Of a stretch of 64,000 nt of DNA, positions 2,907 through 58,868 are shown in pieces; position 1 is the stretch's first letter; the number at the start of each line of letters is the position of its first letter. Location of the stretch: positions 310,001 through 374,000 of the forward strand of contig NZ_QFXK01000033.1 of NCBI RefSeq assembly GCF_003261635.1, given 5' to 3'. This DNA comes from Kribbella monticola (lineage in GTDB: Bacteria > Actinomycetota > Actinomycetes > Propionibacteriales > Kribbellaceae). Position numbers and translations under genes: made by a program. The notes beneath the pieces were generated by a model. That model saw only the letters and a list, made by a program, of their open reading frames with translations, searched no databases and had not been told where the DNA came from.

Positions 2907-3030
2907 CCGATCGTGCCCACCAACCCTCTGCCAGGCCGTCGCTCGCCGACCGGCCTGGCAGAGCCTTGTCTACAGTGGATCCACATCCACCGTGGGTACC
3001 GTCAGCGCTTTCCCAGCTGAGGAGATGGTG

Positions 3031-3879
3031 ATGGAGCAACTGCTGACCGTGCGTGGCGTCGAGTTGTGCGTCGAGACTTTCGGAGCGAAGACCGACCCGG
3101 CGATCCTGCTGATCCACGGCGCCTCCGCCTCGATGGACTTCTGGGAGACGCCGTTCTGCGAGCGCCTCGCGGCAGCCGGCCGCTTCGTCATCCGCTACGA
3201 CCACCGCGACACCGGCCGCTCGGTGAGTTACCCGCCGGGCAAACCGGAGTACACCTCGGCGGATCTGCGGGAGGATCCGATCGGCATCCTCGACGCTCTC
3301 CAGCTCGAGCGCGCGAACATCGTCGGCCTCTCGATGGGCGGCGGCATCTCCCAGGCGCTGGTCCTCGACCACCCCGACCGGGTCGCATCCGCCACCTTCA
3401 TCGCCACCAGCCCGATCGCCACCTCGACCCCGGTAGACCTCCCGCCGATGGCACCTCACCTGCAGGAGGCGTTCGCGGCCGATCAGCCGCCGACCGACTG
3501 GTCCGATCCCGACGCAGCCCTCGACGCGTTCATCCAGGAAGAGCAGCTGTACGCCGGAACCTTCCCGTACGACGAGCCGGCCCGGCGCGAGCTCGTCGCG
3601 CGGATGATCGCCCGCACGACCAACCTCGCCTCTGCCATGACGAATCACTGGATCCTCGACGACGGCGACTCCAAGGACCGCAACCTCGCCGACATCGCCG
3701 TACCGACGCTCGTCATGCACGGGACCGAGGACCCGATGTTCCGGCCGGCGCACGCCGAGGCGCTGGCTCGGGAGATCCCCGGCGCCCGGTTGGTGCTGCT
3801 CGAAGGCGCCGGTCACGAGCTGCCTCAGCAGGTCTGGGACCAGGCGATTCCGGAGCTCGTCGCGATCAGCCGGCACTGA
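3031..3879 (+). CDS. Alpha/beta hydrolase
   Basis: A 282-residue cytoplasmic hydrolase. HGASAS (residues 29-34) is the oxyanion loop, GLSMGGG the nucleophile elbow with Ser101, HGTEDPMF holds the acid residue and GAGHELP the catalytic His near the C-terminus. The architecture matches the TAP/aclacinomycin-esterase-like group of alpha/beta hydrolases. The start ATG at 3031 is preferred over 3025 because GAGGAG sits 6 nt upstream of it. Substrate unknown. It stands alone: the upstream gene ends 124 bp away and a long non-coding stretch follows. Confidence 0.85.
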   Translation: MEQLLTVRGVELCVETFGAKTDPAILLIHGASASMDFWETPFCERLAAAGRFVIRYDHRDTGRSVSYPPGKPEYTSADLREDPIGILDALQLERANIVGLSMGGGISQALVLDHPDRVASATFIATSPIATSTPVDLPPMAPHLQEAFAADQPPTDWSDPDAALDAFIQEEQLYAGTFPYDEPARRELVARMIARTTNLASAMTNHWILDDGDSKDRNLADIAVPTLVMHGTEDPMFRPAHAEALAREIPGARLVLLEGAGHELPQQVWDQAIPELVAISRH

Positions 3880-4138
3880 GAAAACCTCTGCCGAGACACG
3901 GCTGAAATCTGTGCTGGCCGAAGTAGACATTCTCCTGGGTGGTGTGTAGTGTTCCTCGTGTTGACAGAGAAGAAGAGCGAAGCTGACGTGGACAGCTAAC
4001 GATCTGTCCAAAAGTGTTTGTGCAGTGAGTGGGACGGCGGATCCCGCCGGGCCGATCAGTGAAGGGGCTCGGGTTTCACGCCAAGGTCAGAGTCGCGGAG
4101 CCGGTGGTAGGAAAGGGTTCCGGGCTTGACGCAACGGA

Positions 4139-4262
4139 AGTAGCAGTTCGTATTTCGCAGTGCTGTAGTCGCAGTAAGAAGTTCGTAGTTCGCGGTAAGA
4201 GCAGTTGTAGTTGTAGTTGTAGTTCGCAGTCTGTAGTAGCAGTTCAGCAGTTGTCAGATGCA
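4139..4262 (+). repeat. GTAGTT/GCAGTT-rich simple-sequence tract
   Basis: About 20 imperfect copies of the hexamer family GTAGTT, GCAGTT, TTCGTA and TTCGCAGT occur in 124 bp, including three consecutive GTAGTT units near 4207-4224. Such a T/A-containing tract is foreign to the surrounding codon style. It does not form an obvious hairpin by itself. Confidence 0.75.
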
Positions 4263-4471
4263 GTGTTCGAGACAAGAAGGGGAGGGATTACACCGTCGGA
4301 TCGCCCGCCAGTGCCAGTACTTCGCCGGGCGGGTGCCGTAGTTCCATCAGTAAGGAAGGTGGTCTTCGGTTACGCATTCAGCGATCCCCGTAGTGGCAGC
4401 CTTCACGTGGCGCGCTACGGACAGGCAAGTCCGGCCACACGGCCGGTAGATGGTGAAATATTCCCGACCCT

Positions 4472-4499
4472 GGGCCCCGGTGCTACGGCACCGGGGCCC
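4472..4499 (+). terminator. 12-bp hairpin with cUACGg tetraloop before the MerR gene
   Basis: GGGCCCCGGTGC pairs perfectly with GCACCGGGGCCC around the loop TACG. The closing pair and loop read C(UACG)G, a member of the very stable UNCG tetraloop class. No U-tract follows; instead the ribosome site GGAGG (4508-4512) and the ATG at 4517 come directly after. It may be an intrinsic terminator of an upstream RNA or an attenuator of the MerR-type gene. Confidence 0.7.
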
Positions 4500-4516
4500 G
4501 TCGGCATGGAGGCGCG

Positions 4517-4864
4517 ATGACCCCAGATGTGCACACGGAGACACCGATGAGTTCAACCCCGACGACCGGCCCCGCCAACTTCGACGACGACGACTATCCC
4601 GCCTTCACGATGGGCCGGGCCGCGGAGATGCTCGGGACCACGCCGGGCTTCCTGCGCAGCCTGGACGAGGCGAAGCTGATCACCCCGCAGCGGTCCGAGG
4701 GTGGTCACCGGCGCTACTCCCGCTACCAGTTGCGGCTGGCCGCTCGCGCTCGCGAGCTGGTCGACCAGGGCACCGCGCTCGACGCCGCCTGCCGGATCAT
4801 CATCTTGGAAGACCAGCTGGCCGAAGCGCTGCGGATCAACGAGCAGATGCGCGACCAAGGCTAG
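4517..4864 (+). CDS. MerR-family HTH regulator, single-domain
   Basis: A 115-residue protein. After a disordered acidic leader (residues 1-32) comes a MerR winged helix: FTMGRAAEMLGTTPGFLRSL, then the wing signature SEGGHRRYSRYQL, then a short helical tail ELVDQGTALDAACRIIILEDQL. There is no effector domain, so it resembles the small MerR-like regulators common in actinomycetes that lack a ligand pocket. The start has GGAGG 4 nt upstream; an internal ATG 33 nt later is possible. Preceded by a long structured leader and followed by 34-bp repeats, so control may act on the RNA. Confidence 0.82.
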   Translation: MTPDVHTETPMSSTPTTGPANFDDDDYPAFTMGRAAEMLGTTPGFLRSLDEAKLITPQRSEGGHRRYSRYQLRLAARARELVDQGTALDAACRIIILEDQLAEALRINEQMRDQG

Positions 4865-58721: not shown

Positions 58722-58868
58722 GGGTTCCGTTGACCGTGACGGAACGCGACGGCTACGGTTCGGGGGACAACCTGCGGTGCCATGAGGGAAACCGGTGAAA
58801 GTCCGGTACGGCCGCGCCACTGTGAGCGAGCTCCGGCTCGTGAGTCAGGACGCTCGGGCACCAGCAGC
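58722..58868 (+). promoter_or_regulatory. Cobalamin (B12) riboswitch
   Basis: The conserved core is plain: GGTGCC, GGGAAACCGGTGAAAGTCC, then GCCGCGCCACTGTGAG with the B12 box, and GTCAGGACGCTCGGGCACC closing the distal arm. The upstream dyad GTTCCGT/ACGGAAC is part of or next to the P1 region. It lies 39 bp before cbtB, so adenosylcobalamin should shut off the cobalt uptake genes. Confidence 0.95.

Follow-up and report, generated by a model that had tools for sequence, protein, structure and literature searches.

A putative structured RNA family associated with HspR-like MerR genes in Kribbella, Streptomyces and related bacteria

The interval ahead of the MerR-type gene

In the window analysed here, a 64,000-nucleotide stretch of the Kribbella monticola genome, positions 3880-4516 lie directly ahead of the gene for a small MerR-type regulator, and the question raised by this interval is whether it encodes an RNA and, if so, how that RNA relates to the gene behind it. 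An earlier note, made from the sequence alone, had read the interval as a regulatory leader or an independent small RNA, had described its composition as unlike that of its neighbours, and had seen no open frame that resembled a protein. The composition does stand apart, with a GC content of 0.59 at 3751-4500 vs 0.64-0.73 in the surrounding DNA. The longest frame (4029-4520, 163 aa) is interrupted after 27-47 codons in 11 of 11 relatives, the nearest included, and carries 4-20 indels not divisible by three in the relatives compared (n=11); these frameshifts rule out a coding role. The features that we recognize, all on the forward strand, are as follows.

3905..3931 (+), operator-like dyad AAATCTGT-N10-GTAGACATT, its right half overlapping the -35 box (pattern search)
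3924..3952 (+), sigma-70-type promoter: -35 box TAGACA at 3924-3929, 17-bp spacer, -10 box TAGTGT at 3947-3952
3989..4010 (+), 5' hairpin TGGACAG-CTAACGAT-CTGTCCA, loop of ACGA type
4130..4262 (+), variable linker rich in GTAGTT/GCAGTT words, differing in length and sequence among relatives
4286..4455 (+), conserved structured core, model R1, 144.6 bits
4472..4499 (+), 3' hairpin GGGCCCCGGTGC-TACG-GCACCGGGGCCC, 12 perfect bp, cUACGg loop of the UNCG class
4508..4512 (+), GGAGG ribosome binding site of the MerR gene (sequence)
4517..4864 (+), MerR-type (HspR-like) regulator, 115 aa (Pfam MerR_1, NCBIfam HspR)

The regulator belongs to the MerR superfamily (Pfam MerR_1, 5.8e-11, 42.8 bits vs a gathering score of 21.6), and its best named family match is the NCBIfam HspR equivalog NF047375, at 48 bits, below the cut-off of 105, which sets it apart from HspR proper. 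Like HspR, it is a small helix-turn-helix protein without a large effector domain and likely has an inverted repeat in its own promoter as a binding site, which here is putative; the dyad AAATCTGT..GTAGACATT is presumably not the HAIR element of HspR, and we know of no conserved 400-550 nt RNA leader for HspR. Relatives of the protein, mostly with 65-84% identity, occur in 94 of the 395 class genomes, at one to five per genome; the genera include Streptomyces, Kitasatospora, Frankia, Actinomadura, Streptosporangium, Nocardia and Rhodococcus. No relative of the gene was found in IMG/VR contigs, and a single weak match was the only one in phages. As for other parts of the window, the upstream neighbour (3022-3879, +) encodes an alpha/beta hydrolase similar to macrolide esterases, its score of 295 bits lying under the cut-off of 420, and a Cobalamin riboswitch match above the gathering score (38.7 bits) lies at 58787-58853 (+).

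A conserved core between two hairpins

The covariance model R1, built from 55 cores, has 171 positions and 36 pairs, and folds the core of the window as listed here.

4291-4297/4449-4455 (+), P1, closes the multi-helix core
4298-4304/4381-4387 (+), P2, core helix, model R1
4305-4309/4328-4332 (+), P3, core helix, model R1
4359-4364/4368-4373 (+), P3b, core helix, model R1
4388-4393/4415-4420 (+), P4, core helix, model R1
4431-4436/4441-4446 (+), P5, core helix, model R1

In alignment A1, 95.6% of cells were paired, with two-sided changes at 11 pairs; in a 93-sequence alignment fitted to R1, the corresponding values were 95.8% and 17 of the 36 pairs. Sliding the partners by one to three columns in the latter alignment lowered pairing to 32-42%, and its covariation score was reached by none of 500 shuffles. 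Corrected mutual information favoured P3, P4 and P5 most; the same ranking gave no support for P1, P2 and P3b, which are nearly invariant helices. Very conserved motifs of the core are GGAAGGTGGTC..CGGT.ACGCA and GCGATCC. RNAalifold alone returned a partial structure with another partner, GGTGGTCC, for the 5' strand of P2; we took GCGATCC as the partner because it leaves room for P3b and because a matching double change occurs in one relative (L035). Both candidate pairings are nearly invariant, and a switch between the two is possible. One locus upstream of MerR (L098) has a shortened RNA that has lost the P2/P3b/P4 region and seemingly retains the terminal hairpin along with hairpins like P1, P3 and P5; it may be a naturally minimal form or a copy in decay.

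The window DNA matched 21 of 25 Kribbella genomes, its own genome counted, and the covariance model found the core in 21 of 25 as well. The model detected the RNA in 82 of 395 sampled genomes of the class (20 of 138 genera), Streptomyces and Frankia types included; within the sampled order it was found in Kribbella alone, and in a phylum-wide sample of 396 genomes in the class of the window alone. A search of Rfam 15 (4227 families) with the window and seven related loci gave no match over the RNA at gathering score, and relaxed thresholds gave chance matches only. No description of the RNA was found in the open-access papers searched. Upstream of most MerR relatives the order is promoter, 5' hairpin, variable linker, conserved core, GC hairpin and gene.

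At the position of the 5' hairpin, where one of the dyads mentioned in the earlier note was verified, 65% of 93 leaders have a stem score of at least 6 vs 9% of shuffles, and there are 30 different stem sequences: place and loop type are kept, and the stem letters are fully changed. The linker behind it ranges from 58 to 435 nt across the family and is not conserved in sequence. In the window, this is the GTAGTT tract, the densest place for such words on either strand. The earlier note had counted about 20 hexamers; the enrichment held but the number did not, since the exact GTAGTT/GCAGTT hexamers in 3880-4516 number 9 and the G[CT]AGT words 18, with a shuffled expectation for tract words of 3.6 on average and 13 at most (2000 first-order shuffles). 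G[CT]AGT words are enriched in linkers family-wide (342 vs 98 expected), and GCAGTA/GTAGT repeats were seen in the linkers of relatives such as L097, L112 and L169; such repeats are perhaps protein-binding or an expansion-prone spacer. The GTAGTT tract is a lineage-specific linker, and because it changes fast, the emphasis that it had received is unsupported.

The perfect 12-bp hairpin with a UNCG-class loop, described previously, is present just before the MerR gene. Most relatives have a GC hairpin of 12-15 bp at the same place, in which stem and loop letters differ; the distance to the MerR start codon is usually no more than 60 nt, and the same hairpin type also ends RNA copies with no gene behind them. 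It is likely the 3' end of the RNA or an attenuator; the U tract expected of an intrinsic terminator does not follow it (the next letters are GTCGGCATGG), so that termination there is putative. No antiterminator pairing conserved family-wide was found; a pairing of GGCCCCG with the hairpin strand CGGGGCC, possible in some Streptomyces, is absent in Kribbella and was dropped.

Conservation in related species had been proposed as a check on the RNA reading, and comparison with relatives revealed strong conservation of both sequence and structure. Comparative sequence evidence supports the view that 3905-4516 holds a genuine structured RNA family, present in numerous soil actinobacteria and absent from Rfam. 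Of the borders given before, the 3' limit stands, and the 5' limit moves from 3880 to about 3905, where the promoter signals begin.

A common promoter, and copies of RNA and MerR apart

Transcription is expected to start near 3959, judging from the promoter. In 92 leaders with both RNA and MerR, the promoter consensus reads AAATCTgT..tggC.g.aGTAGACATt, a 17-bp spacer (in 88 of the 92) and a -10 box TAg.gT. Promoter and dyad are common to RNA-MerR pairs and to copies of either partner that occur without the other; the dyad halves stand out best in those Kribbella MerR copies that have no RNA (AATATCTAT-N10-ATAGACATT). The pattern ATCTRY-N7..13-RTAGACAT, which leaves looser sites aside, has a single site in the genome of the window, the 3905-3931 dyad, and 17 sites in 14 further genomes, every one at an RNA or MerR promoter; the reversed pattern, used as a control, has none in those 14 genomes. 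This confinement of dyad sites to RNA and MerR promoters (15 genomes) argues that the MerR protein probably controls transcription of both its own gene and the RNA, and autoregulation is the simplest reading of the distribution of this putative operator.

About 104 of 122 RNA copies (approximately 85%) lie directly upstream of MerR, as judged by eye from the lists of RNA and MerR matches. Examination of 14 regions around the remaining copies revealed single copies without MerR and tandem copies before an RNA-MerR pair; at least nine copies of these kinds have kept promoter, hairpin and most of the fold, and most carry the same promoter and 3' hairpin as the linked copies. The earlier alternative of leader or independent RNA is borne out in both its parts, since most copies are MerR leaders and others stand alone with the same hairpin type at their end. 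Copies without MerR score approximately 54-139 bits, below most linked copies. Two of them, L229 (138.7 bits) and L224 (124.7 bits), are nearly intact and have their own promoter and hairpin; L228 and L233 look decayed. In one Frankia-like family, tandem RNAs (L229-L233), each with its own promoter and hairpin, are spaced 450-1200 bp apart, and genome G248 has the RNA and no MerR match at 1e-18. With the nearest linked copy as reference, 118 changes at paired positions in copies without MerR or in tandem break 38 pairs vs 84 expected under random placement, where the lowest of 1000 simulations was 66.

Conversely, several MerR paralogues, in Kribbella (L044, L045) and elsewhere (L088, L162, L177), share promoter and dyad but have no RNA, and their start codon lies approximately 55-150 nt from the promoter; they are natural 'leader deletion' comparisons. 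Because RNA without MerR and MerR without RNA both occur, the RNA and the gene are separable, and the copies that no gene follows point to a further role of the RNA that does not depend on the gene.

Neighbourhood, mechanism and the link to stress

Of 80 loci, 20 have a cold-shock protein (CSP) gene within 4 kb and 16 have a DEAD-box helicase gene. An S. goshikiensis linear plasmid carries, in this order, genes for a CSP, a DEAD-box helicase, a CBS protein and an SCO5918-family protein, then the RNA and MerR; this arrangement matches the published S. coelicolor neighbourhood SCO4684 (CSP), SCO4685 (DEAD-box), SCO4686, SCO4687 and SCO4688 (MerR-type) (PMC9534924); the numbering of SCO5921 (CSP), SCO5920 (DEAD-box), SCO5918 and SCO5917 (HspR homologue) fits the same order. 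SCO5917 and SCO4688 were described as HspR homologues of unknown role, and SCO5917 showed the strongest move to polysomes of any gene at 42 C (9.2-fold; PMC6009599). From synteny and the HspR-like description, rather than from sequence, both appear to belong to this MerR family and to have the RNA upstream. Plasmid records with matches number 63 for the RNA and 93 for MerR. Several RNA/MerR copies lie less than 0.5 Mb from contig ends in near-complete Streptomyces chromosomes (e.g., G056, G093, G333 and G410); given the copies on linear plasmids, mobility through chromosome arms is possible.

The reading that we favour, and hold to be somewhat probable, is that the RNA gene and the MerR gene form a module with a dyad-controlled promoter, a folded RNA that ends at the hairpin, partial read-through into MerR and an additional role for the RNA. 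Polymerase would start near 3959 at the sigma-70 promoter, and the HspR-like MerR protein encoded downstream would bind the dyad and control this promoter, as its conservation suggests. The transcript of approximately 545 nt would comprise the 5' hairpin, a flexible linker and the multi-helix core closed by P1, a structure derived by comparison, and would end at 4472-4499. The hairpin would stop most transcripts and release the RNA as a separate molecule; some polymerases would read on into MerR, so that the RNA would also be a regulated leader setting MerR output under temperature or other stress. The copies without MerR support an action of the RNA apart from the gene behind it. A bolder version, which we regard as tentative and rather doubtful, is that this is an autonomous, probably trans-acting actinobacterial RNA and the main output of its MerR regulator, so that an HspR-like stress switch would take effect through the RNA and not through a protein regulon; it is put forward because the detectable operators are the promoters of the RNA, the MerR gene and their copies only.

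That the RNA regulates only the MerR gene behind it, by attenuation or translation, with copies without MerR as relics, would agree with the large share of copies that directly precede MerR, the short distance from hairpin to start codon, the translational induction of SCO5917 by heat (PMC6009599) and the degraded state of some unlinked copies. Such a purely cis-acting leader is nevertheless unlikely in view of the nearly intact L229 and L224 with their own promoters and hairpins, the far smaller number of broken pairs than expected over copies without MerR, and G248. The same 9.2-fold rise in polysome association at 42 C (PMC6009599) could also point to a heat-sensitive RNA thermometer in which the MerR ribosome binding site is masked until the temperature rises, but the site lies outside the conserved helices, and its calculated accessibility at 42 C (mean of 0.43 in 21 leaders) is little above that at 30 C (0.38) and falls in some leaders; these calculations do not support simple melting, and we consider a thermometer improbable.

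About as improbable is a metabolite riboswitch in which the core would serve as aptamer and the hairpin as terminator: a compact, very conserved core before a hairpin near the start codon speaks for it, yet no gene for a transporter or for biosynthesis follows the RNA with any consistency, gene context offers no ligand candidate, there is no Rfam match, and stand-alone and tandem copies have their own promoters. The repetitive and variable GTAGTT tract might suggest a DNA-level element or low-complexity spacer and no functional RNA, an explanation that is hardly credible against base-pair covariation, conservation across the class and a strand-consistent architecture from promoter to hairpin.

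Among known systems, the leaders of cspA-type cold-shock genes are long structured 5' untranslated regions on temperature-response genes. The module resembles them in its long structured leader and lies near CSP and DEAD-box genes, but the RNA precedes MerR and not csp, and stand-alone copies exist. OLE, GOLLD, ROOL and raiA are long, structured and conserved bacterial RNAs of unknown function; the RNA described here differs in having no Rfam match and in being paired with a dedicated MerR gene and a common putative operator. Kribbella is among the genera with candidates for Ms1 (PMC9130861), the RNA polymerase core-binding RNA also known as scr3559, which is likewise a long, structured and widespread actinobacterial noncoding RNA with its own promoter. 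However, Ms1 of S. coelicolor is approximately 230 nt long and 6S-like, with fixed gene neighbours, whereas the RNA described here is built around a multi-helix core, lies among other genes and occurs several times per genome. The flanking genes of Ms1 were not found around it (its neighbours are the alpha/beta hydrolase and MerR here and CSP/DEAD-box genes elsewhere), and identity with Ms1 was dropped for want of common synteny and because of the different fold.

Streptomyces and its relatives make most natural antibiotics, and to our knowledge few conserved structured RNAs are known in them. The RNA family described here is widespread and multi-copy, also on linear plasmids, and if SCO5917 carries the RNA upstream, its published heat effect would be directly testable through the helices of the leader.
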